Shown one piece after another: positions 5,206 through 59,296 of a DNA stretch of 64,000 nucleotides. The notes beneath the pieces were generated by a model. It had not been told where the DNA came from. It was given only the letters and a program-made list of their open reading frames with translations, and ran no database searches. A program made the position numbers and the translations under genes. Every line of letters starts with the position of its first letter. The stretch's first letter is position 1. Source of the stretch: Chrysoperla carnea (lineage: Eukaryota; Arthropoda; Insecta; Neuroptera; Chrysopidae); NCBI RefSeq assembly GCF_905475395.1, contig NC_058338.1, positions 6,710,935-6,774,934 of the forward strand, read 5' to 3'.

Positions 5206-5820
5206 TTTGCTGCCGTGAGAGCTATTGGTCAGAATGATCCAAAGAACTTTTTAGGGTGGGTTAGGACAAGTTTCACAGAATGCCATTTGTCTATCTAATA
5301 ACAAAAATTAATATTCAACACTGTATAAACTTATTCCTAGCAAAGCCGCCAAGTAACAGCTAGTGTTTCCCTAAAGTATTTGATGGGGTATACACGCGGT
5401 AAACAAAAAGAAGTGTATCTAAACAATATTTAGGACATAAACAATTTGTTTATGTAGAATAGTAATAGAATAGAATTCCCCCGAAGATACATTTTAAAGG
5501 AATTTATAAATAAAAGACTGCAATGTTGAAGGAGATTCTGGTACTCTCTGGTACCTCTACTCTGTTATCATAGAACTGGCTCTGACTGCTATGTATACTT
5601 GATACTTGTCATGTAACAGTTGTGCATACTGAAGTATACATTGTATCATTGTATAATGGTCTCTTCTATATCCTTTAATATGTCTTTTGTATTCTGGATG
5701 TATATCGGGATCTACAAGGTTATTGTAAAATGTTGAAGGATAATAAATGATTTAAGAAAATACTTAAAATTTAGTAGGTGTAGAGTGAAATCAAGTTCAA
5801 TTTTAAAATTATTTACTATT
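5206..5820. other. Non-coding spacer
   Basis: No exon or transposon end was recognised. The sequence is locally less AT-rich near 5520-5700 but without a coherent reading frame. Confidence 0.5.
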
Positions 5821-6490
5821 ATCGTCGGTTTTTATTACCTGGATCCCCGGACACTCTGGTTGGAACGGTAATGAGAGAGCAGACAAGCTGGCCAAACTGG
5901 GAAGCACCATGGCTCCCAGTCAAGAAAAGCTTGCGAGGATGCCATACCAAGAAGGTCTTAACACATTAGGAGATAATCTGAAAAACCAACAATTAAAGGC
6001 ATGGACCAGCTACGAGGGAGGGAGAATCGCCAAAAGCCTGTTGGGTGAAGGAAACTCGCTCGGTAACAGAGCCGAGGAGATCTTGAAACTAAACAGAGCT
6101 GATATTAGAGTCATCGTAGAGTTACTCACAAGGCTGAATAACCTGAACAAGTTCCAACATGAGATTGGAAAAAGACAATCTCCCACCTGTGACAGATGCG
6201 GAGAAAATTCAGAAGAAACATCGATCCACTTTCTCTGTTACTGCCCGGCGCTCATACAGCAGCGAAGTAAATGGTTTGGTCCGGCCATAGTCGAACCAGA
6301 AGAAATTAGGAAACTCAGCGTTAGGCAAATCCTGGGTTTCAGTACATCAGTTGGTTATAATAGCCACTGAAAAGCGTAGCGGAGATAGAGTACAAGGGTC
6401 TATTTGGCTAGGTGCACTGAACCATTGCTTCGAGGCGCGATGATCGAGCATGGCCCGCTAACCTCCATACCCCATACCCATCGTCGGTTT
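5821..6490 (+). pseudogene. 5'-truncated LINE (RNase H and C-terminal tail) with target-site duplication
   Basis: The insertion (5832-6479) is flanked by an 11-bp direct repeat ATCGTCGGTTT at 5821-5831 and 6480-6490. From about 5838 to 6370 one open frame encodes the end of an RNase H domain (TWIPGHSGWNGNERADKLAK), then the C-terminal region with a Cys-x2-Cys...His...Cys pattern (CDRCGENSEETSIHFLCYCP), ending ...STSVGYNSH-stop. This is typical of ORF2 of I/R1/jockey-group non-LTR retrotransposons. The frame is intact but lacks the endonuclease and polymerase domains, so it is a dead-on-arrival copy. The tail ends in short CCATACCC repeats. The clear duplication and open frame suggest a fairly recent insertion. 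Confidence 0.92.
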
Positions 6491-27600: not shown

Positions 27601-28244
27601 TCTCATTATTCCTAATTAGATATTGAATTAGTTGAAATTTCCTTCTTACTAATAATTTCTTCCTAATTTTCGTCTTACTATTCTTACGTGTAGGAATTGT
27701 GGGGAAAATGTTTAAACAAATCTTGCTCAAGTTGCAAGGAGTGTAAATAGTTAACTCGAGTACCATTCGACTGATTCCGAAAATTCCACTCGAGTCACAT
27801 CACTAAATGAACTAGTATTTTCCATATAATAATAGTCAATCACAAATTCTATTAGAAATGATAATGTGTATGTAAGAGCGATCTAAGCATGATGTATAAA
27901 CATCTATGTATATTATTATTATATGGTAATCATGGTTGAGATCAAAAAAGGTTATTCCAGAAAATTAAATAATTATGTTGGTAACTGTTTATTATTTAAT
28001 AAACATCTTTTAATTTACATTAAACATTCTATTACAACAACATATGACAACCTTTAATGAATAATTTTATTTCGTATTCATAAATTTATCTTATATATAG
28101 AAAAAAATTAATTTTAAACACATTCAGTAAAATATCAAGATAGAATTACACAAAATACCAGTTCTGCGAAATTTCCGAACATTTGTCGAACAAATCTACA
28201 CTTATATAATGGTCGTATAAAACCTCATCTCGTTTTTTTCTGAT
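24668..28244. other. Non-coding DNA, 3.6 kb
   Basis: No exon is recognised on either strand. Short open frames at 24823, 26546, 26917 and 27249 show no motif and atypical composition, and are not called. Small (TATTCCTG)n and (GATA)n-like runs lie near 25685 and 25810. Confidence 0.5.
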
Positions 28245-28486
28245 CAAGGCAGTATTTGACTATCTTTGTTTAACGAATTTAGTGTAAAAAGTTTAGCATC
28301 TTTGTCTTAATCATTGGCCTTGGTCTTGCAAGTCTTGTTTGGTTTTGCATATGTGTAAGAGCAAGATCAAAATACACCACCAAGTATGCTAGACCAAAGC
28401 AGTTAATTACAAAAGAACCAAGACCCATGTGTAAGACAAAGAACAAAGTTCAAATGTTAAAGATAAAGAAAGTCAAATTAGCCTTG
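28245..28486. mobile_element. Imperfect foldback element, about 240 bp
   Basis: The left end CAAGGCAGTATTTGACTATC pairs with the right end (reverse complement CAAGGCTAATTTGACTTTC). Inner blocks CTTTGTCTTA and CTTGGTCTT are also inverted. Arms of about 110 bp are diverged, implying an old MITE. Confidence 0.7.
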
Positions 28487-29680
28487 TTTTGTTCTTGGTA
28501 GTCAAATAAAAATTTGAATCTCAAAATCATCCAAATTAAGACAGCGATATCTACAACCTACTCTAGAAGTGATTCAATTTTTGTTGGCTTTCAGTGTACA
28601 TTCTACAATAAAAGCAAACTACAAGTAATAAAAGTTTAGTAGTTTTTATCACCTTTGGTGTACCTACGTCATACCGTTATACGTGACGACATTATCATTA
28701 CAATGTTGCAGTCAAAATTTATGGATTTCATTCTCGAACACATGCACTTACAAAAACAGACCAGAACGAAAACAGATCAATGATGCAATGATGGTTTGAA
28801 ATTGAATGAACAAACATAAAAAAGCTAGATTTTTGCTAACAATTGCCTAAACTATTCGGTTTACAAAAATGTTTCAAACAAAAAAATATATATAAAATCT
28901 AAAAGGCTATAAAAATCATATAAACTAGGTACTACACTTTTCCCTACTATCGAGTTCAATATAAATGGTGTTGTTATTTATTTAAATGTCACGTGACGAT
29001 GACACTGACAAGACAATGATGAACATGTACCTTCATTAAGTAACACTACACCTATTGATAATGAGTTCGACTACGACACTGGCACACCAATCACACTATT
29101 CAATATATACAATAAATATACAAGATGGAGCTGCTATCAAAAATACTTTGCATAAAATTATATCGAAAACGAATTTAAAAAGTCTTGTAATTTACTCCAA
29201 AACATGTACAAAACAAAAGAGAAAACATTTTGTCGGGTAGAAGAAAAAATTCTAAGGAAGATTAGCGTTTTAGAATCGGATAAGTCGAAACACGGTATTT
29301 TGCTTTTATACAGAACAATGTAGTCTACATGACTGTCAAGGAGTGGTTATGTTTTTCCCGAGTAGTTTTTCGCGGCTCAATGGATTTCAACATATAAGGT
29401 ATCATTATAGTTGTCTCAAGAACCCAAGTGTTCTTAGGTAGGTTTTTTAAAAAACAAAACAAAATGGTGGATTTTTGAAGCGAAATAGTAATACTTTAAT
29501 AAAAAAAATGAACAAAACCTATCGAGTAGGGTATCAAAATAAAGGAAATTAAAAGGGGATTACAAAATATTTATACGTTATATGTTTTAATTTAATTAGG
29601 AAGAATAAATTGGTTTAAAAGTTTTAATATAATATAATGAGAGGGTTATTTAATGCTGAGACTCTATAAAAGTCAAAAAT
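28487..29680. other. Non-coding DNA
   Basis: No gene or repeat end was recognised. Confidence 0.5.
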
Positions 29681-29797
29681 AAGTCCAGTAGTTTACATAA
29701 CGACTTCAACAGTCGCGGCCCAATAAAATCTAGACCGACACAAACCCTTCCCAATAATGGCCCCGACTGTTAAAGGCTATGTAAACTACTGGACTTG
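29681..29797. mobile_element. 117-bp MITE
   Basis: Perfect 19-bp terminal inverted repeats AAGTCCAGTAGTTTACATA. The inner block 'cgacttcaacagtcgcggcc' is followed by inverted 'ccgactgtt'. A diverged relative is at 19161-19276. Confidence 0.88.
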
Positions 29798-31161
29798 TTT
29801 CTTCTTTTTCAGATTTATTTAACGCAGTCAAGTTTTTATTTCTTTAATTATTTATTTTATATTGAGAAGTCCTAGAGAAACAACCTCAGACTTAAATTCT
29901 TCATAAAAGATTGTCTTATTATGTACGGCAAAAAAAAAAAATTTTTGACCTTCAACTATTCTTAATTCGAATTCGTTCAAAATTCTTTAGAAATTCACTT
30001 TATAAAATACTGATAAAACTCGAATGATAACACAGTGTCATTTATTATCCAGGTAAATTTTTCACGTTCTTTAAGTTTGAATTCAAAAGAAAAATCTAAA
30101 CTTTTTGGTGGGGGTACATTCTGTATATATGTATTTATGTAGAAGTTGATAACGAATAATAATATAATGATACCGAGGAATTATCATATTCGTTTACTTG
30201 GTAATTGTAAACACTGTAATATTGATTTTCTAACTTAGATTAATTTATTTAGAATAAATAATCTAGAAAAATTATTTTTAATTGGTCTGAATATACGTAA
30301 CTAAATAAAGATATTCGAGCAGAGTAGCTTAACAATTTTAGTTAATTGTATAAATATCTTATATATAGACAATTCAATTAAAAGTTCGTACCTGAATGAC
30401 CGAGTTTTCTCGATATTTTTTGAGTTAAAAAGACTCAATTTTTATCACTAATATAAGAATCGTTTAAAATGTCTCAACACAAATACCAATATACCAATTT
30501 GAATGTCCCAGTATTGTACTTTATTCGTTAACTACGATATACGCCAATAGAAGTCAGGAAGAGTCATATTTTGCAGTTTATATTTCAGTTTTACCTAGTT
30601 CGATTTTTCGCCCCAAAAAACCCTTACCTAAACTATACGATTTTCGAAAGAATGTTTCGAACAAAATATGTTACTTTTTTAATCAATAACAGCTTTCTAA
30701 TTTAGCTTGAAAACCTAGTTTCAAGCATATGTCAACTTAAAAAAGCACCGTGTAAAAGCTGCTCAAAACCGACAAATTTATCAGAATACGAACCAAGAAA
30801 ATCGCTTTATGTACTCAACTTTGGACGAATTATGGTGATATGGGAGAGGTGACAATTCTACATATCTTATTTCTTTTGAGTTATTTAATTTAGGCTAGGA
30901 TATTTGGAATCACTTGTTTAAAAAAGTTTGGGAGAGGAGAGAAGCACTTATGACTTTGGAGGCTTATATTTTGCGAAATATTCTTCTAAAAATCACATTA
31001 TTTTTCCTATTTCCCACTTTTAAAGACGTATCCAACACTTAGCGGTTCTACAAAAATTTCCATAGTATTTAATTAACTGTACACCTTCCCCCTTAATAAA
31101 TGTATGATTCCAGTTTCACTGTATTAAATAATATAATTAATTTGTTTGTATTTTGTTTTAG
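29798..31161. other. Non-coding DNA upstream of the widerborst exons
   Basis: Probably part of the intron before the first visible widerborst exon, because that exon begins in phase 1 and needs an upstream coding exon. Nothing else is recognised. Confidence 0.5.
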
Positions 31162-34100
31162 ATGTGACGTCCGGTGAACAAGAGGATCTATTTATTCGTA
31201 AATTACGACAATGTTGTGTAGCATTCGATTTTATGGACGCTACGGCCGACTTAAAAGGTAAAGAAGTCAAACGTGCTACGTTAAATGAACTTGTGGAGTA
31301 CATTACAACCGGACGTGGTGTGCTTACCGAGCCTGTTTATCCTGAAATTATTAAAATGGTACGTATGAATCTAGTATTTAAAAAAAAAATATAAAAAACT
31401 ATTATTGGGTAAATTTAAAATGAAAATTGCATACTTTAAAATTCATATATTTAAATTAATAGCAGAAACAAAATTGATATTTTAAAAATAATAATAATTC
31501 GCTGAATACAAGAGCACAATCAGATTCAATATTCATCATACTCGACTACACGAGTGTCTGAGACAGAGACCTTCACTAAATCGCACTATTATAATCTTTT
31601 ATTTATTTATATATTTCATAAGCAGACTATAAACATCATAGATGTTTGTACTAACAGCTAAGATCGCTGATCTAGTATTAGACTATAATTTATTATTTAT
31701 TCTCTGATATCGGCCCTCTATTTTTATATATAACATACCATAGCCCTGACCGCAAAGGAGGCCTTTTGTTCCCAACAAAACTTTTATATTCCCCCTCTGT
31801 ATAGATTCCGCTGGGAATACAAATTATTATGCTATTCCAAATGTGGATCTCTGATGATTCCATTTGGAGGACGATGAAACCTCCACACATGTCATTTTTG
31901 TCACTTGCAGAAATTTGTTGCAAAAAGAGTGTCAGGTATGTATTGTTTGGGTCTGAAACCTTGGACGCATCAATCCTTGTAGAACTTTCAGCGAAGAATC
32001 TGAGGGTTTTCTGTGTGGCGTATGACCTCGACAGAATTCTTTAAATTAATCTGCTTAAAATAACACCTCTTACCTGTTGATGTCTTTTCTTCGGGTGATA
32101 GTTTCTTCTCAAGAAGGGCACAGAAGCGTTCCATAAATATTATCCTAATTATAGAGCAGGCTCTGGGAGATAAGCATGATGAACGGTATATCCCTGTCAA
32201 CAAGATTACTGTAGGAACCTGGAGTTGTCACACTAGAAAGGAGGAAGAGACGAAGGCTAATATCCTTTTATCTAGTATCTCTGTCTTGAGTCAGAAATTT
32301 TTGGCGACCACCCGGGAACGATATTTTCCTGTCAACAGACGAAGGCTCCTTTTACCTATCTCTATCTTGCGTCAAATATTCTTTGGCGACCTCCCGAAAT
32401 TAAAATTTATCGATACCAAATCTCATCTGCTGTATTTTTTCCACAATTTGAAAATATGTTGATATTCTATCAAACAGTTTAAAGTTAAAATGGAGTATTA
32501 AAGAGATTTGACTGTAAAAATATTTGAGTCAGATAAATATTTGCTTTGAATATGATATTTTAAATTACTAAAGTTTATGGTTAGTTAATTTTCTATTTAA
32601 GTAGTAACCTATCTAGCAACCATCATTCAACGTTATCGTTCTTAAATTAAAACCATATTCAAGAAATACGATTACGATCAAACGTTACGATTTTTCTACG
32701 TAGTCTAGGAGCCAGATGGGATATCCAGTTCAAGTTTTTTTTAACTCGCTTATTACGAAATGATCATTTTTTCTGTTGTTTTAAAGATATAAAGACATAG
32801 AAATCGTTTTTAGGATTCCGCTGTCAAATGGTAAAAAAGAGTTCCTTATAAATTGTATCTTTTGTACATCAGAGGAAAAAATTGTCAAGTGATCTTTTTT
32901 CTTCAGCTCAATATATGCCCAGGATGTTTGTCCTTTAATTTTAAGTCCACTTAAATGAGTTAAACTTATAATAATCTTTCTTTTGTAGATATCAGCAAAT
33001 CTATTTCGAACATTACCTCCAAGTGAAAATCCAGACTTTGATCCAGAAGAGGATGATCCAACGCTGGAGGCGAGCTGGCCCCATCTTCAGCTTGTATATG
33101 AATTTTTCCTACGATTTCTCGAAAGTGCTGACTTTCAACCCACCATAGGCAAAAAAGTTATTGATCAAAAATTTGTTTTACAGGTAAGAAAAAATAACAA
33201 ACTAAAAATATATATTTGAAAAATAATAAAAATGATTTATTCTTTTTTTCAGTTGTTAGATCTATTCGATTCAGAAGATCCTCGGGAGCGAGATTTTCTA
33301 AAAACAGTTTTGCATCGTATATATGGCAAATTTCTTGGCCTACGAGCATTTATTCGTAAACAAATTAATAATATATTTTTAAGATTTGTCTACGAAACTG
33401 AACAATTTAATGGTGTTGGAGAATTATTAGAAATTTTGGGAAGGTAAATTTTATTCATTCATTTTTTTCATGTTCTTTTAAGTTAGAAATCCGATTAAAT
33501 ATAAGCCGATCAAAGATTCGTCCCATTTATTTTAAATGTTGACCGAGTATTTTTTTGGAAGCGTAACTTAAGAGCAATAGTTTCCCGCGGTATATTTGAC
33601 AAACCATTGTCACTCATAAGGGCCACGCTTGCCGAATTTTTCTATTTTATCAGCACGCTTAGAAGAAAAAACTAAAAAAAAACTAGTTGATTTGACGACT
33701 AGATCATTAGTTCTCAAGATACCGCTAAAAATTTCTCTAAAATATAGGGTTTCGTATGATAAGGTGGGGAGATTGGGTCACAGTGGATCTCTTTTTTCCT
33801 TAGGATACTCTAGGCAAGTGCCCAGGGCAACACAAACGATGGAGGCTCCTGCTTGTCCTCAAAAAAATCATTCTTTGTAGTCGTCGTTCCATTCTACGCA
33901 GTAGGTGCGTGTTTCAATGACAAAATAATATTTGCAATAATTTTATTCGATTTGCCAACTGTAAAATACGTAAAATGAGACGAAATGCGGTAATGACATT
34001 GAATAATTATGTAATTAGCACACCTGTTAAATCGAAAATCTTATCTAAAGGCTAATATTTTTAATTTCGTGACAATCAATTTGTTTATACAATTTGAAAT

Positions 34101-35892
34101 GAAGTTTAACAAAAAGAAAAGAGGTCCCCGTGATCCATATGGGGTGCTAACTCTCGGACTATAGTAGAGAATAACCTGAGATAAAAACATTGATTTTAAT
34201 ATGCTTGATGATTTTATTTTGCAGTATAATAAATGGATTTGCGTTGCCGTTAAAAACAGAACATAAACAGTTCCTTGTGAAAGTGTTAATACCGTTGCAC
34301 AAGGTGAAATGTTTAAGTTTATATCATGCACAATTAGCATATTGTGTTGTACAATTTTTGGAAAAAGATGCTACGTTAACTGAACCAGTTGTACGTGGTC
34401 TACTCAAATATTGGCCAAAAACATGTAGTCAAAAAGAAGTTATGTTTTTGGGTGAAATTGAAGAAGTATTGGATGTTATTGAACCAACACAATTTACTAA
34501 AATACAAGAACCATTATTTAGACAAATATCTCGTTGTGTAAGCAGCCCACATTTTCAGGTAAACTACCAATTAATTTATTTATTTATTCTTGTACTCACT
34601 GTACCATTCTTGAGTTTTTCATCAGATCGAAAGGGTAGAAAGATAGTTTGTATATTTCTTATTTTGATTATCCTCATCTACAGCTTTATCCTTCGTCATC
34701 GCGATTTTGTTCATAAAAACTTTGAATCGAGTTATTAAAACCAAAATCTGTGAAGGATCGGTCAAAATTTATTCTCCTTAAGTGATAAATTGAAATTAAT
34801 TACAATAAAATTTGTATGTTTTTGATTTAGGTTGCTGAACGAGCACTTTATTTTTGGAACAACGAGTACATAATGTCATTAATGGAAGAAAATAATCATG
34901 TGATTATGCCAATCATGTTCCCAGCTTTATATCGTATTAGTAAAGAACATTGGAATCAAACCATAGTTGCACTTGTTTATAACGTTTTGAAAACATTTAT
35001 GGAGATGAATTCTAAATTATTTGATGAACTTACGGCTAGTTATAAAGCTGAGAGACAAAAGTATGTATATATTTTTATTTTATTTAATTATAAACTTTAC
35101 CGTATTTATTCTTTCTCCTATAAATCATTGAAATTGTACGAAAAACGAACTGATTAAATTTTTCTATTTAATTTTGATTCGGAAAATATCAGATTTCTAT
35201 ATTATATGGAGTTACTCAATTTTTTAGAGCCTGGCAACAGTGTACCTTGAATGAAAATCTCAAACATTCTGATCAGCCTTTAATATTTTATACGCAAGGT
35301 TGAAACGTTGAGAAAATTTATTTATTAATTTGATATGTTTTTTTAAACGTGTACATAAGTATTTAAACTAAAAATTGAGTATGTGCAGTGAAAAGCTTGT
35401 TTATTTCTCTTTAAAATACGCTTGTATTGATCTTTATACGAGCTTTTAAGATCGAGTTATTTGCGAAGAAAATAGACTTTCGTTACTTTTTAAACTGCCG
35501 TATTTCCTTGCGCCACGCTTAAATCGTCAGATATTGAAATCCTTTTTAGCATGTAATTAAGCCACCACATGTTAATCTGACGTTTAACATTTTTTCGTAA
35601 ACATCATTGTTTACCCGTGAGTGCGCAAATAAGAAAAACTTTGTTGTTTATTAGTTATATAGTGGTTTTGTGAAATATTTTCGAACCAAAACAAATGGTA
35701 ACCGAAAGACCGCCATAATTACAGTTGCAACAATTCAGTCACTTGTTTTTAAAATGATTTTTTTATTTATTTTACAGAGAAAAAAGACGTGAAAAAGAAC
35801 GTGATGAGCTTTGGAAACGTTTAGGTGAATTGGAAATAACAACTAAAAAAAATGTCCATCACAGCCCAACAACAACTAGTAACAAAAAGTGA
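31162..35892 (+). CDS. wdb: PP2A B56 (B') regulatory subunit, widerborst type, 5' end missing
   Basis: B56 subunits are HEAT-like scaffolds that bind the PP2A A/C core and recruit substrates through an LxxIxE-binding groove. Six exons were joined by splice sites and phase: 31162-31358, 32989-33183, 33253-33443, 34225-34558, 34831-35060 and 35778-35892. Together they give 419 complete codons from [14 protein letters not shown] to ...TTTSNKK-stop. Family hallmarks include [93 protein letters not shown] and [27 protein letters not shown] and LRAFIRK place it with widerborst/alpha/epsilon rather than well-rounded/gamma/delta. The first visible exon starts in phase 1, completing an Asp codon, so an upstream coding exon exists; none was found in 1-31161. 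The C-terminus is short. Intron 1 carries a LINE fragment. Very sure of family; symbol assigned by recalled family sequences. Confidence 0.95.
31693..32400 (+). pseudogene. LINE tail (family L) in widerborst intron 1
   Basis: In one frame the segment around 31870-32020 encodes [15 protein letters not shown] and a following tail. This matches, with changes, the C-terminal stretch EDETSIHVICIGRNL encoded on the minus strand at 44241-44489. The 3' tail after the frame contains 'gacctcgacagaatt' and 'ctgcttaaaataac', shared with the copies at 37395, 44171, 44511 and 52540. Frames are broken by shifts. Bases 32090-32400 repeat the phrase 'cctgtcaacaga/aagatt' and 'ttggcgacc' twice and may be further LINE 3' sequence. 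Confidence 0.7.
35587..35632 (-). repeat. Family R fragment in widerborst intron 5
   Basis: The short piece 'ttttcgtaaacatcattgtt' followed by 'tacccgtgagtgcgcaaat' matches the reverse complement of the start of the 24255 copy. It lies about 150 bp before the last widerborst exon. Confidence 0.6.
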
Positions 35893-37394
35893 TAGCCAAT
35901 CACCTCCTAGTGTCCCTCATTCATTATTAATAATAAGAATAATAATTAATTATAAAAACAAATAACAACAAGTCATTGAAAAAAAAAAAACAAAAAAATC
36001 AAAAAAATCCTCTTGCGTTTTCCCTTTTATATATTTGAATGAAAAAAACAAAAATCACGAGACCCCAAAACATTTTTTTGATAGAGATACGATACAACGA
36101 GATCTATTGTTGTGTGTGTCACATCAAAATAAAAAAACTAATCAGCCAGTCACAGACACATAGACTCCTGATTATAATAATTAATTATCTTGTAGCAATG
36201 AAAAACAAACAAAATTATTTAAAAACCAATCATCATACTTACTACATTTATATAAATCAAAACTTAACATTTACTTGACATTTTAAATGACTCAAGGTTG
36301 TGTCCAATAAAATCAAAAAAAAAATAATTGTGCTAAATTATGTCTTGTTTGTTAACGGTCGTCGTCAGGTAAGTCAGAATCCATCTTTTTCATCACACCC
36401 ACAACACATACATACACACACATACATATATATTCACAAAAAATCCACATCCACAATCTTTTTTCTGCAATGGCTGCTAAAAAAAATTCATCATCGTAGA
36501 GACCAAAAAAAATAAAATAAACATATTATAAATATAAATATTATACAAATTAATACTTTATCAAAACAAAACACACCGCCATTTTTAAAAAATTTGTTTT
36601 TTTCTTAATAGGTTAGGTCTATTTAATCACCTCCCGCCCCCAACTTTTCATAGATTTGCGCTAATTTTTTTTTTTTGTTATCACTACTCAACAACACATG
36701 ATTAATGATGGAAGTTAAATGTGATGCGATTAAGTGTGTGATTGTGATGTGTATTGAACGCGAATTTGGTGTGATATAATGCGTAATTCGAAAACAATCG
36801 ATGATTCTTTTCTAGAAACTTGAATTTCTGGAAAAGGATCGTCGATTGTGTACATTCCTAATCGATTACTAAAATAAAAGAGAGATGACAGTGATATTTG
36901 TCGTAAAATAAGTGAAGAATTCTCAAAATTTCGAGATCATGCGGATGCAATTAAGATCACATTCGATGTAGTTCGATAATCCTTTTCTAAAAGCTTGGAT
37001 TTTTAAATTCCTAAAAAAGAGTTAATCGAGTACTGAAAGAAAAGCGAAAAGACAGTGATATGTATTCGAGTTATTTTTAGAAACAGGCAAAGAATTAATT
37101 AGCGGGGTTTTGAACAAAAAAGGGAATTAATGCGAGGAATTTGAACGACGAGTGTTAAAAAAGGAGCGCGAGTTGAAAAAAAATTGAAATTGTTGCCGTG
37201 GAAAATGAAGAAGCGGGAGAAATAGAAATAGATAGTTCTCAGAGTTCTGCAGTTCATACAAGTGTAATTGAGGAGAAACCAAAAGACATTTTGATTTAGT
37301 AGCAAAATATTTTTCACAAAAAGTTTAACATGGGCATCATTTCAGGGAAATTGGTGCTTTAATTATCGTAATGATATAATACATAAGATACCCC

Positions 37395-37575
37395 TCTTAT
37401 GGATTCCTGACACGTAGGCGAAGGGGTACTCTTTACCCTCCAATAACCTGTCACCTGAAGGTACGACATCTCCGTGTAAGAAATGCTATTGAAGCAGATG
37501 AAGTTATAGGATTCTGTCGAGGCTAGACGCCACGCAGAAAGTCCACAGCATTTCCACCGGAATTTCTCCCAGAAT
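37395..37575 (-). pseudogene. LINE family L 3' tail fragment
   Basis: It shares 'gcagatgaagttataggatt', 'ctgtcgaggc' and 'gacgccacgcagaaa' in order with the minus-strand LINE tails at 44171-44340 and 44511-44705. Only the end of the ORF and the 3' tail are present. Confidence 0.65.
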
Positions 37576-37865
37576 TGAAGAATTTATTAACATCAAATTA
37601 TTACTTGTAATAAAAAAGTTTCACTGTTGACTTGTTTGTATAGAATAACGGGAAATGTAGGCTAAATTTTCGAAAAATATAGGAATCGAACTCAATTAAC
37701 ATCAAAATCACAAAAATTTACGCAAGTTGAGTAGTGGACAACCTATAAATTTTTGTTTTGGGTGTAAACAAATCATAAAAGTGTGCGCAAAAATTATGTA
37801 CACAGATCTGATGACGTGCGAGATCACCTTTTTTACGAATACATACGAAGAATTTTTTATTTCTG

Positions 37866-38160
37866 TTCGAATTACGGAAGCCTGGATGTCTCAATAGCTT
37901 TTTTTTTTAAAAGTGTCTACCCACAAATATAAAACCAACTAGTTCACTTTCAACAAGTGCACTTGTGACTATTCCAGATAGTTTCGGTAGTGGCTAATTA
38001 AAGAATAGTCATTACCGACTGACACTTTCAAAAAAGTTTGTTTCCATAATGTCCCACAAGTCACAAGTGCACTTGTTGAAAGTGAACTAGTTGGTTTAAT
38101 ATTTGTGGGTAGACACTTTTATAAAAAAGCTATTGAGACATTCAGGCTTCCGTATCGAAT
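37866..38160. mobile_element. Foldback MITE, about 100-bp arms
   Basis: Left arm 37866-37970 and right arm 38059-38160 are near-perfect inverted repeats. Outer ends read TTCGAATTACGGAAGCCTG against CAGGCTTCCGTATCGAA; inner ends read AACAAGTGCACTTGTGACT. The loop of 88 bp holds a second small hairpin (GACTATTC/GAATAGTC). If the region is transcribed as widerborst 3' UTR, the RNA would form a long double-stranded hairpin. Confidence 0.9.
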
Positions 38161-44170: not shown

Positions 44171-44510
44171 GTCTTCTGTGCCTTCCTTGAGAACAACTTG
44201 TCATCCGAAGGCGAGAAGTCTCCGAGCAAAAGATGCTATTTTAAGCAGAAGAAACTATAAGATTCTGTCGAGGCCAGGATTTCTCCCCCAGATTTGAAGG
44301 ATCCAAGGTTTCGGGCTCAAACATTCTAAACCTGACACCTTGCAGATTTCTGCCGATGCAAATTACATGTATGGAGGTTTCATCTTCCACCATACAGATC
44401 CTACAGGTGGGATCATCAGAGATCCCCATGTTATGAATTTCGTAATTCAATCGGCAATGTCTTGTCAAGAGTCTCACCGCCCTTCTCAACTGTGCTCTAG
44501 TGAGTTTCTG
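44171..44510 (-). pseudogene. LINE family L fragment: ORF2 C-terminus and tail
   Basis: On the minus strand, from about 44510 to 44241, one frame reads RRAVRLLTRHCRLNYEIHNM then DDPTCRICMVEDETSIHVIC, the conserved zinc-knuckle-like region after RNase H in I/R1-group LINEs. The last expected Cys region reads CIGRNLQG, so the motif is decayed. The 3' tail (44240-44171) contains 'ctgcttaaaatagcat' on the sense strand. The endonuclease, polymerase and RNase H parts are missing. Confidence 0.85.
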
Positions 44511-44705
44511 TTGAGAAGTCTTCGGCTAAGAGATGCTATTTTAAGCAGATGCACCTATAAAATTCTGGCGGGAACAGACGCCAAGCAGAAAGGTCACAGC
44601 TTCTCCGCTGAGATTTTTTCCACGACTGATGAATCCAAGGTTTCTGACCCAAACATTCTAAATCTGACGCCATGTAGGTTTCTGCGAAATACATCTATTA
44701 AAATA
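44511..44705 (-). pseudogene. Second LINE family L tail, abutting the first
   Basis: Read on the minus strand, it carries the end of the ORF (a GVRF-MFGSETLD-like stretch with shifts) and then the same 3' tail as 44171-44240. It directly precedes the other fragment in sense orientation, so two tails lie head-to-tail: either one LINE inserted next to another or a tandem template jump. Confidence 0.75.
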
Positions 44706-45874: not shown

Positions 45875-46666
45875 TTGCAGAAATTTTCGACACTTTAAGT
45901 AGCAAAGAACGGGTTGATAGGGCTGATAATTTCAAGAGGTCTTATACGAACCGATTTACAGAAAAATGTGGGTCTTTTAATTTTGAACCTATTATAGGAA
46001 GTAATTTTTTGATGAGAAGAGAAAGGAACAGTCAATGATTACGCTCACTTAACGATGAACGAGTTCTCAAGTTGAAAAACAGTAGATTCAATGTTATTGA
46101 TGATTAAACCCCAATTCTTTTTGCACCAGGGGTTAAAAATGGGTTCAAAATTAGCCTCACTGGTTTCAGTAAAAAGTTGTGTGTTAGGCTTCATTAAATT
46201 ACTGTGTATGACAGCTTTAGAATTATAATCGAGTTGTTAAAATCGAAATTTCAGTTTAAAGGAAGCGGCAATACGCAATAACTAATTCCTATGATGAATG
46301 GCGTAATAGACTTCGGTATGTAAAACTTCATCCTCCAATTTATTGAACATAACTCAAAAATAAAGGATGTGTTCGGTCGAACTGAGGGCTCGATTAGTTT
46401 ATTGAGGATTTCTCGGCCCCCATGGAACTTGCAACAAAAAATGGATTGTTAACCTTGAATTGGCTCATTAAATAAACTTAACGCCTGCGAGTGTTCAATT
46501 CGGCCAGACGCACCCAATAATACAAATAACATTTCTACTAGCCGAATAGTGGCCAAATATCGAATATTCGGTGCAAAACTAATTTATATAAAGTATTGTA
46601 CTCGAAAAGTACTCAAAAAACGTCGTATTATACTGCCTAATACAATTTAGATGGGATGCAATTTAT
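45875..46666. other. Non-coding DNA upstream of the B56 paralogue
   Basis: No repeat ends or exons were recognised. The proximal promoter of the next gene probably lies at the right edge. Confidence 0.5.
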
Positions 46667-46687
46667 AACGTTGCTATTAGCAACGTT
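46667..46687. promoter_or_regulatory. Perfect palindromic X-box (RFX-type) motif
   Basis: The core GTTGCTATTAGCAAC (46670-46684) fits the RFX consensus RYYRYY-N(0-3)-RRYRAC in both halves, with a 3-bp spacer. The palindrome extends three more bases on each side. It lies 108 bp before the ATG of the B56 paralogue. The match is seen directly; binding by RFX is inferred. Confidence 0.5.
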
Positions 46688-46794
46688 TGTTTTACGCCCC
46701 CGCTATCCCGAATTTTTCCCAAAACACAAGCAAAATGTCACATTGTTCAAAATTTATTTTTTCGTAAATAATAATGATTTGATAAAAAAAAATA

Positions 46795-49700
46795 ATGTTT
46801 CCAACATCAAATATTGATGGTGTCAAGTTAAAAAATAGGGCAGTGAACGTAAGAACTAGCAAATTTAAAACAATACCAAAAAATATTGATATTTTGAAAC
46901 CTTTGCCACGTTTAAACGGTGAGAAAACTCTAGATGGCGTAATTTCTTCGTTACTTCAGAGGATAAAATTCAGGATTTCAAAAACGCCTCCGTTGTCACG
47001 AATTCAATTTTAAGTTTTTAATTCTGAAAATAATTTTTTATATTTTAAAGATTGCCGTAATGCAAATGAAAGAGAAAGTTTACTTATTAGAAAAATTCAA
47101 CAATGCACAACATTATTCGATTTCTCGGATCCAAATATTGATAATAAGAGCCAAATGGTTAAAAAGAATGTATTAAATGAATTAATTGATTATATAACAG
47201 ATGATAAGAATTCGATTAGTGATAATGCTTCGTCAGAAATTATAAATATGGTACGTAATACAAATACTTTACTGTAGCTATTGATAACTGGGAGTGGACC
47301 GCTTTTCAGTAGTTCCAATTTAGACCACCTAATTACTTACCATTTGTCAATATTAATCCAAACTTAAAAAAGTAATCGAAATTTGAAATCATATTCGATT
47401 TTAATTCTAGGAAAGACTCTATCTAACGATAGAAAAGAACTATTGTAAAAAAAACTTTAAGAACTATTGTAAATGTTTTCGATATTGTTGTCTCTAGGTG
47501 GCAAAGAATTTATTTCGAACTTTACCATTAAGTGATTTTGATCCTATGGAAGACGATCCAATATTAGAACCAAGTTGGCCTCATATGCAATTAGTTTACG
47601 AATTATTTCTACGCTTTCTTGAAAAGTTATCTTTTCATGAAGTGAAAAAACCACTTGATCAAGGTTTTGTTGTTCAGGTAAGTACACCAACTTTCCTAAA
47701 ATTATTAGTATTTGTGGAGTATCAAGAGAGAACTGGGCTGCCTCCTTTTGATCTCAACGTTCCATACATTTACCTGGTTAATTATGCGTCTTTTTCTAAG
47801 TACTGTTGTATTTATGAAATTTTGTTCCAACTTTAGACAATAATTCCTGAATCCTTAAATTTTTATGCCTTTTTCAGATTATTCGATTATTTGACTCAGA
47901 AGATCCTAGAGAAAGAGATTATTTAAAAACCGTTTTACATAGAATTTATGGTAAATTCATAAATTTACGCGCATTTATTCGAAAGGAAATCACATACACA
48001 TTTCTAGAATTTATTTATGAAACTGAACACTTTAATGGAATTTCTGAACTTTTGGAAATATTTGGCAGGTCTATTAGTAATATAAGTTGGTATATTTTAA
48101 TTATTTATAAACAAAAACTTCTCTTGAAAGGTTCTTAAAGGACCCAAATTTAGTAGGATTTCATACTTGGTTTATCAAAATTGGATAAAATTTGAATGTG
48201 ATAGAGCAAAAATAAATTTTTTGGATTCTGATGACGTCATTAAGTTAAAAAATTCAATTTTTTTGATAACACAGGCAAATTTGATCCGATCTTATTGGAA
48301 TTTTTTTTGGAACTCACTAATTGTGGGACATTCTTTTCAGCTGTGATGTCAATTTTTCGCTAGCTATCTCTGTTGTGCTTAATTCCGGTACCAGGGCTCC
48401 ACATACTTAGAATCTATTAAAGCTAGGTTAATTTTGACCTCAAATTTGAAAAGTATGACCCAAATTTAGTAGGGTTACATACTTGGTTTATCAAAATTGG
48501 ATAAAATTTGAATGTGATAGAGCAAAATTAGTAGGATTGCATACTTAGTTTATCAAAATTGCCTATATGGTACTTTTTGATACCTTTTAATGAACAGCGA
48601 ACTCTTTAAGGTAAAATGCCATGATTATGGCAACTCTTCCCCGTTTTGCCTTTACTCTTATGTTAAATACTATCAGTATACGAATTTTCATCAAAATCAT
48701 TAGAGTCGATCCCGATATATATATGGGGCAACCTAAATACTTGCCACCGATGCTATGTACCCTCGTTACGACCCTGCGTGCGTTTATTAAAGGACACCCC
48801 ATTAAAAAGGCAAAAACTGGTGGAACGAGGATCATTATATTTATTAAAATAAAATTATTTGAATTATAACGTTTTTAATTACAGCATTATAAATGGATTT
48901 GCAATACCAGTAAAACCTGAACATAAAATAACCCTTCAACGTGTTATAATGCCGTTGCATACTCCAAAATTGTTGCACAACTATTGTACACAATTAGCAT
49001 ACTGTGTTGTTCAATACGTGGAGAAAGAAGCTTACTTTGCTCGAATATCAATAAAAGCATTATTAAAATATTGGCCAAAAACGTGCTCAAATAAGGAAGC
49101 GATATTCGTAACAGAAATCGAAGAAATATTAAATATAATTGATGTAAATGAATTTAAAAAAATACAGGAACCATTATTTAAACGGCTTGCATTGTGCGTG
49201 GGAAGCTTACATTTTCAAGTAATTCAATCTTTTTTCACATTTTTGTAGATAAATTTATTTCCTCCCAATTTTTATCTACAGGTTGCAGAAAAATCATTAT
49301 TATATTGGCAAAATGATTTTGTTTGCCGATTAATGGAGGATAATTATAAAACTTTAATTCCTATACTGTTCCCTCACTTATATCGAATGAGCAAAGAACA
49401 TTGGAGTGAAACAATTATATCGCTGATAATGAACGCATTAAAATCATTTATGGAATATGATCCAAAATTATTTGGTGATTTAACAGCACAATACAAAAAC
49501 GATAAACAAAAGTTAGTAATAGAAAGTATGCCAAAATCTAAAAATATAACCACGACAAGAACGGGTTCACCTCTTGTACCATAAGTGAAGCCACTTTTCC
49601 GCAATGTTTCTGTGGAGTTCTTTATAATTTACAATAGTCCAAATGTTCCCACATCAGTAACTGATACGCCATAAACCACCAAAAAATAAATGAATGAACA

Positions 49701-49878
49701 TGACCATAAATTATGTTAGATCATGACCAAATTAATGAAATAAAACTTCTTAATATTTTACTGCAGGGATAAACGAAAAACGAAAGAGCGGGAAGAACTT
49801 TGGAAAAAATTAAATGATATTGAAGTAAAACGGAATATGTCAAAACTTAAACAATACAAGCAAAATAAATTTCATTAA
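46795..49878 (+). CDS. Diverged tandem paralogue of PP2A B56 subunit
   Basis: Seven exons: 46795-46918, 47051-47250, 47498-47677, 47878-48068, 48885-49218, 49282-49511 and 49767-49878; 1371 nt, 456 residues. An in-frame TAA at 46783 supports the start. Residues 36-42 (KPLPRLND) match the 'LPxLKD' entry to the B56 core. Exons 4, 5 and 6 have exactly the lengths of their widerborst counterparts (191, 334, 230 nt), and all phases agree, so this is a DNA-level tandem duplication, not a retrocopy. It keeps [47 protein letters not shown] and KIQEPLF. By hand, 47 of 63 residues match widerborst in exon 4, far fewer in exon 2. The acidic loop is altered ([15 protein letters not shown], four residues shorter before it). 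It should still be a PP2A targeting subunit with changed partners; tissue unknown. AATAAA follows the stop directly. Confidence 0.95.
48125..48560 (+). repeat. 1.4 units of the 315-bp CRE repeat, in intron 4 of the B56 paralogue
   Basis: Shares 'aaatttagtagg', 'atcaaaattggataaaattt' and 'ggattctgatgacgtcatta' with the tandem array at 58435-59296. One TGACGTCA lies at 48232-48239. Confidence 0.85.
48561..48884. other. Rest of intron 4 of the B56 paralogue
   Basis: Contains overlapping open frames on both strands (48587-48869) in sequence richer in GC than the exons. Phrases such as 'gttacgaccctgcgtgcg' look transposon-derived, but no family is recognised. Not called as coding. Confidence 0.4.
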
Positions 49879-49984
49879 TAAAAATGAAATTAAAAAAAAT
49901 GCATTCCTTCTTTATTTAAAACAAATCATTAATGTGAAAAAAATTGTATAAAATAAATTAGAAAATATTATTTAACCATAACAG

Positions 49985-50335
49985 GTTGCTTCATTTTAGA
50001 GATTTTTTTCAAAGGGCCGATAAATCAGAATCATCAATTATTCTGCTTTATCGTTTTTTCTACAAAACTTTTTCTGGCGGCACCAAAGTAGTATTGATAA
50101 CATTTATCTCCCCAGGTTTTAAAGTTTCTCGGGGTGGCCAATCACTTTTAGTCCAATGCTGTTCTGTGGCTCTACTATCCCATAAGCATAAGAAGCATGG
50201 ATATTTAGTATAGCCTACCTGCTGGCCCAAAAGCATCGTATTTTGAAGTCCCCACGAACCATCCATTGATGGTCCTGATATTTGATTCTTTCCAGGGTAA
50301 TGGCCAAATTGTTATAGTTAGTTTTCTTCCATATG
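49985..50335 (-). pseudogene. Broken copy of a repeated arthropod protein family (YQDHQW...YPCFLCLWDSR)
   Basis: On the minus strand, fragments read in order YQDHQWMVRGDFK, then (after a frameshift) LLGQQVGYTKYPCFLCLWDS, RATEQHW, WPPRE, LVPPEKVL, a stop, and a remnant near SKMKQP. I recall this combination from a multicopy family of uncharacterised arthropod and cnidarian proteins, probably encoded by a transposon; its function is not known to me. Stops and frameshifts show that this copy is dead. It fills much of the 966-bp gap between the B56 paralogue and salvador, so salvador's promoter should lie right of it. Confidence 0.7.
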
Positions 50336-50844
50336 CACAGAATAACCCATTGGAAGCGAAGCTAATTTATTTTCATCGTGCAATAATAATACTTTAAGAC
50401 TAGTTTATGTTGTTACTAATATCTATGAAAACCTATGTGATAGAATGTTTTGAATAGTTTTCCTGATTTTGGGAGGTCAAAATCTATAAGAAAATGTAAA
50501 AAAATCCTATGCAATTTTTTAGTCGCAGACCTGTGTCCTTTATATTTTTTGAATAATCTAGGTTGTACGGAACCCTAAGTCAATTCCTGTACATATGTAT
50601 GGACTATGGAACTTTGTAGCGAGTAAACCCCAACTCTCTTGACTATTTTTTTTTATTAGCTGTCAGTTGAATAGTGTCAGTTATTCAATTTTATCTTATG
50701 GTTATTATTATGATTATTATAAAAACTTAAAAAGTTTTATTTTAATAAGTTTTAATAATTAATTCAACGTATATTAAAAAGATTATTAAAAAACAACAAA
50801 AGAAAAATGTTAATTTAGCAAAAGGAACACAAAAATTAGTTAGA
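50336..50844. other. Putative promoter / 5' UTR region of salvador
   Basis: No coding content. A transcription start cannot be placed: no clear initiator or TATA box was recognised in the AT-rich sequence. Confidence 0.35.
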
Positions 50845-54187
<3,343 letters not shown>

Positions 54188-54739: not shown

Positions 54740-55410
54740 CGTCTAACGATGTGCCTTTTGGAGGTGAAAACTTTCCAGTCTCTTTCCCACTTTCACATGT
54801 CGTAATATTATGTTTTTTCATGGTTTTTATGTCATTGAACAGGTGTACAGCCTCCCCAAATGAAACTAGAATGTTGAAAATCGGTATGTAGGTTGGGTTA
54901 GTGTCGAGGATGTGCCTTATGGGGGTGAAAACTTTCCAGCCCCCTCTCCACTTTTACATGTCGTAATATTGTGTTTTTTCGTGGCTTTTATGGCAATGAA
55001 CAGCTATATAGCCTCCCCAAATTGAACTAGAGTGTTGAAAATCGGTATGTAGGTTAGCTTAGTGTCAAAGATGTGCCTTATGGGGGTCAAAATTCCAGCC
55101 CCCTTTCCACATGTGGTAATATTGTGTTTTTTCGTGGCTTTTATGGCATTGAACAGCTGTACAGCCTCACCAAATGGAACTAGAGTGTTGAAAATCAGTA
55201 TGTAGGTTGAGTTATTGTCTAGAATGTGCGTTTTTGGGGTGAAAAATTTTCAGCCCCCACCCCGCTTTCACATGTTGTCAAATTTTATTGTTTTTCTGTG
55301 GTTTTTATGGCCTTCCTAAATTGGAATAGAAGGTTGAAAATCGGTATGTAAGTTAGATTCGTGTCAAGTATGTGCCTTTTATGTGTCGACATTCCAGCCC
55401 TCCCCCCCTT
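54740..55410. repeat. Tandem array, period about 150-161 bp, 4.3 units
   Basis: Units start with 'gatgtgcctt' or variants near 54748, 54909, 55070, 55222 and 55368. Each holds 'tgttgaaaatcggtatgtag' and a C-rich 'ccagcccc' block. Unit length shrinks along the array through small deletions. It lies between salvador and the converging small gene. Confidence 0.88.
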
Positions 55411-58434: not shown

Positions 58435-59296
58435 TCTTTTCAACTGTGTCAGTTTTTCCCTAGCTATCACTTATGTGCTTATTTTCGGTACCAGGGCTCC
58501 AAAATCTTGAAACCTATTAGAGCTAGGTTAAATTTGATCACAAATTTAAAAAGTATGACCCAAATTTAGTAGGATTACATACTTGTTTTATCAAAATTGG
58601 ATAAAATTTGAATGCGATAGAGCAAAATTAAATTTTTTGGATTCTGATGACGTCATTAAGTTAAAAAATTCGATTTTTTAGATAACACAGGCAAATTTGA
58701 TCCGATCTTATTGGAATTTTTTTTGAAACCCACTAATTTTGGGCCATTCTTTTCAACTGTGTTGTCAGTTCTTCGTTAGCTATCACTTATGTGCTTATTT
58801 TCGGTACCAGGGCTCCAAAATCTTGAAACCTATTAGAGCTAGGTTAAATTTGATCACAAATTTGAAAAGTATGACCCAAATTTAGTAGGATTACATACTT
58901 GTTTTATCAAAATTGGATAAAATTTGAATGCGATAGAGCAAAATTAAATTTTTTGGATTCTGATGACGTCATTAAGTTAAAAAATTCGATTTTTTTGAGA
59001 ACACAGCCAAATTTGATCTGATCTTACTGGAATTTTTTTTGAGATCCACTTATTTTGGGTCAATCTTTTCAACTGTCATGTCAGTTTTTCGCTAGCTATC
59101 ACTGTTGTGCTTAATTCCGGTACCAGGACTCCAAATTCTTGGAACCTATTAGAACTAGGTTAATTTTGATAACCAATTTGAAAAGTATGACCCAAATTTA
59201 GTAGGATTACATCCTTAATTTATTAAAATTGGATAAAATTTAGATGTGATAAAGCAAAATTAAATTTTTTGGATTCTAATGACGTCATAAAGTTAG
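58435..59296. repeat. Tandem array, period about 315 bp, 2.7 units, each with TGACGTCA
   Basis: Units begin 'tcttttcaactgtg' near 58435, 58748 and 59064. Each contains 'ggtaccagggctcc', 'tatgacccaaatttagtagg' and a perfect cAMP-response-element palindrome TGACGTCA at 58648, 58964 and 59280. Units 1 and 2 are nearly identical; unit 3 is more diverged. The same repeat is in intron 4 of the B56 paralogue. Confidence 0.92.

Follow-up and report, generated by a model that had tools for sequence, protein, structure and literature searches.

A complete, fast-evolving B56 gene of Chrysoperla carnea, probably a working PP2A regulatory subunit that arose by tandem duplication of a wdb-type gene

In the window (the whole stretch of 64,000 nucleotides analysed, C2:6710935-6774934), a complete gene for a B56 regulatory subunit of PP2A, G2, was found at 46795-49878; a conserved wdb-type B56 gene, G1, lies 11 kb upstream. 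By far the simplest reading of the sequence characters is that G2 would be a DNA-level tandem duplicate of the wdb-type gene, and the sequence makes it probable that G2 acts as a working, less constrained PP2A-B56 subunit (a germline step, treated separately below, is not counted in this estimate).

The gene model of G2 comprised seven exons and 456 codons: ATG at 46795; stop codon ending at 49878; spliced frame without internal stop; six introns, all GT-AG, of phases 1, 0, 0, 2, 0 and 2. The features were as follows.

46795..46918, + strand: exon 1, 124 nt, phase-1 end, start codon at 46795; the N-terminal segment of B56 epsilon/alpha can be aligned with its end
47051..47250, + strand: exon 2, 200 nt; 27/65 residues identical to G1
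47498..47677, + strand: exon 3, 180 nt; 41/60 residues identical to G1
47878..48068, + strand: exon 4, 191 nt; 48/64 residues identical to G1; most of the LxxIxE pocket is encoded here
48141..48530, + strand: repeat insert in intron 4; ~90% identity with the tandem array (316-bp period) at 58435-59295
48885..49218, + strand: exon 5, 334 nt; 63/111 residues identical to G1; the altered acidic patch is encoded here
49282..49511, + strand: exon 6, 230 nt; 41/77 residues identical to G1
49767..49878, + strand: exon 7, 112 nt including the stop codon; 15/35 residues identical to G1
49877..49882, + strand: AATAAA, read directly, a possible poly(A) signal, overlapping the stop codon

The Pfam profile PF01603 matched the G2 protein with 508.7 bits (cut-off 25) over residues 38-436 (profile positions 2-410 of 413), i.e., the B56 domain is present along its full length; a CagE/TrbE/VirB match (17.7 bits, cut-off 21) was below threshold and was taken as chance. 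A sequence-only reading of the same DNA had described a complete 456-residue frame without stops and had put the share of replaced residues in the first homologous exon at about half; the coordinates proved exact, and the replaced share in exon 2 was slightly over half. The RefSeq annotation of the C. carnea genome (PMC10116181, available in part) may already contain G2. No report of G2 was present among the matches listed for literature on duplicated or testis-specific PP2A subunits, nor among those for Chrysoperla combined with "protein phosphatase 2A".

Six exons of G1 were located in the window.

31162..31358, + strand: exon 2, 197 nt
32989..33183, + strand: exon 3, 195 nt
33253..33443, + strand: exon 4, 191 nt
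34225..34558, + strand: exon 5, 334 nt
34831..35060, + strand: exon 6, 230 nt
35778..35892, + strand: exon 7, 115 nt including the stop codon

A candidate exon 1 of G1, with a phase-1 end followed by GTAAGG, was found 28.7 kb upstream of window base 1; a motif pattern applied to 111 kb matched only there, and among the tblastn matches listed this one ranked first (E 0.044), so that it is likely the true first exon. If so, the first intron of G1 measures ~60 kb; the homologous intron of G2 is 132 nt long. The intron positions and phases of G1 and G2 agreed in 5/5 cases in the window, together with the acceptor of intron 1 (phase 1), and in 6/6 cases when the candidate exon 1 was included; exons 4, 5 and 6 were of equal length in both genes (191, 334 and 230 nt). 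The shared intron positions and phases and the three exact exon lengths, both of which had been claimed from the letters alone, were thus reproduced. Comparison of the two loci at the nucleotide level (28001-38000 against 46001-51000) gave three blocks of similarity, all at exons, and no trace of a duplication breakpoint.

When the whole C. carnea assembly was searched with PF01603, 15 exons were matched, divided equally (five per gene) among G1, G2 and a third locus; only the best candidates were scored (13/13 here), so that a more divergent copy could escape. The B56 loci found in this way numbered three, the third being a wrd-like gene near C2:2.16 Mb. Over 391 shared columns, the wrd-like protein was 84.4% identical to B56 gamma, 85.2% to delta and 70.6-71.9% to alpha, epsilon and G1. 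The B56 chains used for comparison (alpha, gamma, delta, epsilon) were the sequences of solved structures, which we take to be human proteins; the top two solved relatives were B56 epsilon and alpha for G1 and G2 alike.

Synonymous sites were near saturation between G1 and G2: 20/49 four-fold third positions were identical, and 34% would be expected by chance; NG86 gave dN 0.37 and dS 2.06, maximum likelihood gave dN 0.32 and dS 4.43. Because dS is saturated, no date of the split can be drawn from these sites. Searches for relatives of G2 were of no use for dating either: 50 pattern matches in GTDB genomes with 0 confirmed, and 154 in IMG/VR contigs (alignment query) with 0 confirmed. It is conceivable, although on balance unlikely, that G2 represents an old third B56 class, older than the lacewings and lost elsewhere, e.g., in Drosophila; this would be compatible with the explanation preferred here. 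The saturation is consistent with such an age, and so is the short stem common to G1 and G2 (0.045, vs 0.083 private to G1, with both genes held together). However, a long G2 branch can shorten this stem artificially, the two genes remain in tandem, and the available part of PMC4463637 lists two B56 genes for Drosophila, one per clade.

The identity between G1 and G2 was 235/412 (57.0%), that between G1 and alpha 326/409 (79.7%); G2 was 55-57% identical to the B56 proteins of the alpha/epsilon clade, where G1 reached about 80%. With G1 and G2 held together, the G2 branch was about ten times longer (0.846 vs 0.083), in line with the fast-evolving copy proposed earlier. The same imbalance was seen in private changes (G2 vs G1) with every outgroup: 110 vs 16 (epsilon), 113 vs 18 (alpha), 90 vs 22 (delta), 94 vs 24 (gamma) and 85 vs 22 (wrd-like). 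At sites invariant in the six other sequences, G2 had changed 57/229 residues and kept 172/229; the corresponding changes were 2/174 for G1 and 3/175 for the wrd-like gene. Scored by BLOSUM62, 18 of these 57 changes were negative and 28 positive; loss of some contacts by G2 is possible. Exon 4 was the most similar between the two genes (75% identity) and exons 2 and 7 the least (42-43%); exon 1 of G2, which has no G1 counterpart in that alignment, was identical to alpha at 7/20 residues.

In a three-gene codon model, omega=1 on the G2 branch was 32.2 lnL units worse than free omegas, and omega 0.2 was 12.0 units worse; the distances stood at the upper bound and dS was saturated, so that the omega values are unreliable and only the rejection of neutrality is usable. 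Neutral simulation of the G1 coding sequence left 11/1000 runs free of stops at 0.05 changes/site and 0/1000 at every higher value simulated (0.1 to 1.0); decay to K 0.37 produced ~20 stops on average, and the neutral chance of keeping all 24 splice-site bases at this K was 2.5e-4. An open frame by chance is excluded by the PF01603 score of 508.7 bits together with this simulation. Purifying selection on the G2 protein is supported, because omega=1 was rejected and neutral decay would have left ~20 stops. The idea that G2 is a relaxed, nearly redundant duplicate heading for loss, with no role of its own, would fit its far faster change and the 28 positive BLOSUM62 scores at otherwise invariant sites; it is nevertheless improbable in view of the absent stops, the intact splice sites and the strong rejection of omega=1. 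The sequence-only reading had named dN/dS near 1 as evidence against itself and had proposed selection for a changed job: neutrality did not hold and selection, of the purifying kind, was found; the changed job did not follow, as relaxed constraint explains the faster rate equally well.

The residues at four functional sites were compared. At the positions E198, E200, P201 and W207 of B56 delta, which we take to be disease positions, 3/4 were kept in G2, and E200 was D in both G1 and G2. The LxxIxE-binding pocket of B56 gamma is composed of S173, D180, T184, H187, R188, Y190, R197, R201, E226, I227, S230, I231, A236, K240 and H243, as given in the available text of PMC4930772 and PMC7108865. 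All of these residues were identical in G2 (15/15, vs 172/229 for all invariant sites, P=0.012); the other invariant sites of the pocket region were kept in 35/43 cases, and the local excess of pocket retention is therefore modest. The conserved acidic patch of B56 gamma (E276, E310, D313 and E316; PMC7108865, same portion) was identical at 2/4 positions: D313N loses the charge and E316D retains it. The acidic-patch mutants described in that portion of PMC7108865 are charge reversals, unlike D313N/E316D of G2; the altered patch may give G2 a weaker preference for basic-patch targets. According to the accessible part of PMC9974998, joint loss of K181, K217 and K227 of B56 alpha breaks PP2A assembly; the equivalent lysines were kept in G2 (3/3).

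These data also bear on a decoy or inhibitor, i.e., a G2 protein that keeps the LxxIxE pocket, does not assemble with PP2A A/C and blocks the targets of G1 and the wrd-like B56. A complete pocket in a protein that has otherwise diverged, most in exons 2 and 7, is what such an inhibitor would display; the retention of all three assembly lysines and of three of the four disease positions, the fourth being D in G1 as well, argues against it, and we regard it as quite improbable.

The clade of G2 was assigned from gene structure and alignment. The intron at the G-S codon is common to G1 and G2 and missing from the wrd-like gene, which has its own intron inside exon 4, 60 nt before the G-S site, absent from G1 and G2. 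Insertions of one residue (VSDP) and three residues (before FDP) occur in gamma, delta and the wrd-like protein and are absent from G1, G2, alpha and epsilon in the alignment. The protein tree separated {wrd-like, gamma, delta} from {G1, G2, alpha, epsilon} with support 100/100 and rejected a pairing of G2 with the wrd-like protein (p-AU 0.0034); joining G1 and G2 improved lnL over the free tree by 0.08 units (p-AU 0.504), the G2 branch being long, and a position of G2 as sister to gamma/delta/wrd as a whole was compatible with the data (p-AU 0.213). Among 24 strict clade-diagnostic markers, G2 had 8 of wdb type, 7 of wrd type and 9 of neither; its exon 7 was identical to G1 at 15/35 residues vs 4/36 to the wrd-like gene. 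Origin within the wdb clade is thus assigned because of the intron and indel characters and the adjacency to G1, the residue markers and the protein tree being undecided by themselves. The same characters bear out the extra tandem copy of wdb type that had been suggested at the outset; a placement with wrd orthologues, named then as the result that would speak against it, is the pairing rejected by the tree. That G2 is instead a copy of wrd type or an old, unrelated branch, and no duplicate of G1, is very improbable: the evenly split markers and the tolerated sister position to the gamma/delta/wrd clade stand against the shared G-S intron, the missing clade insertions, the adjacency and exon 7 match to G1, and the rejected pairing.

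The surroundings of G2 were inspected as well. The array at 58435-59295, to which the insert in intron 4 is related, has a 316-bp period and 2.7 copies; the repeat is probably young and spreading. Another tandem repeat (161 bp, 3.5 copies, 82% matches) lies at 54748-55311. Directly downstream of G2, on the same strand, a WW-domain gene was found at 52710-53197 (PF00397, 47.2 bits), presumably Salvador-like; the ORF next after it had no Pfam match. At 5807-6370 (+) and 44241-44525 (-), RNase H was matched above threshold (26.1 bits, cut-off 25.8) and a reverse-transcriptase zinc-binding domain below it (20.8 bits, cut-off 27.5), and an ORF similar by eye is situated immediately 5' of exon 2 of the wrd-like gene, at L009 5260-5544 (+); the three ORFs are likely remains of non-LTR retrotransposons.

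The assembly was searched for extra PP2A core genes as partners of G2, and the best candidates gave no clear indication that the core had been duplicated in parallel: at C5:64.85-64.87 Mb one PP2A-C-like locus stood out, with exon matches of 74-96% identity against 37-75% for all others, and PPP2R1A-like HEAT matches occurred at two places, on C1 and C3. Since a single PP2A-C-like locus is outstanding, G2 would use the same core. A long one-stretch phosphatase match at G000:C5:22740305-22741039 (-), 51% identical to PP2A-C and with one TAA inside, is possibly a PP1-type or retrocopied phosphatase.

For the working, less constrained subunit preferred here, the following course may be proposed. 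The G2 product most likely keeps the HEAT solenoid fold of B56, would join the ordinary PP2A core and would capture LxxIxE-bearing proteins through the unchanged pocket; because the pocket is retained, it would compete with G1 and the wrd-like B56 for these proteins. Outside the pocket, G2 has evolved at about ten times the rate of its parent, and the altered acidic patch may favour fewer targets with basic stretches. The setting of G2 would most likely be a restricted one, with relaxed constraint on G2 and the essential functions carried out by G1. A germline setting is a tentative guess, short of an even chance by our analysis, made because LxxIxE-dependent recruitment of B56 is reported for meiosis in C. 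elegans oocytes (PMC7787666, available part) and because the new, faster-evolving phosphatase paralogues of Drosophila are mostly male-biased (PMC3137614, available part). More speculative and rather unlikely is the proposal that G2 founds a third insect B56 class. Derived from wdb, such a subunit would bind LxxIxE motifs in the standard way, with its acidic patch weakened and its flanks remodelled, and would serve a phosphatase pool dedicated to the germline or to meiosis in lacewings, or else an older pool that flies have lost.

A duplication with one fast copy is ordinary in kind and mildly unusual for so conserved a family. A fast G2 that keeps its docking pocket constitutes a natural experiment for telling apart the B56 surfaces that pocket docking requires and those that can vary freely.

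Among known systems, widerborst (wdb) with human PPP2R5E and PPP2R5A (alpha/beta/epsilon clade) is like G2 in the full-length B56 domain, the matching N- and C-terminal segments, the LxxIxE pocket and the absence of the two insertions of the other clade; unlike them, G2 has changed a quarter of the otherwise invariant residues (57/229) and carries D313N/E316D in the acidic patch. Well-rounded (wrd) with human PPP2R5C and PPP2R5D (gamma/delta clade) belongs to the same family, and the wrd-like gene of C. carnea has 5/6 intron positions in common with G2 (the first seen from the acceptor side only), but differs by its own exon 4 intron, the lack of the G-S intron, the +1/+3 insertions and a longer C-terminus. 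Drosophila PpY-55A, PpD5, PpD6, Pp4+ and Pp6+ are, like G2, extra faster-evolving paralogues beside conserved core genes, as stated in the available part of PMC3137614; should G2 prove to act in the germline, it would be a counterpart of these male-biased phosphatases on the targeting side. The male-biased Drosophila phosphatases described there are catalytic subunits, mostly retroposed, whereas G2, known here from sequence alone, would be a regulatory subunit and a DNA-level duplicate.
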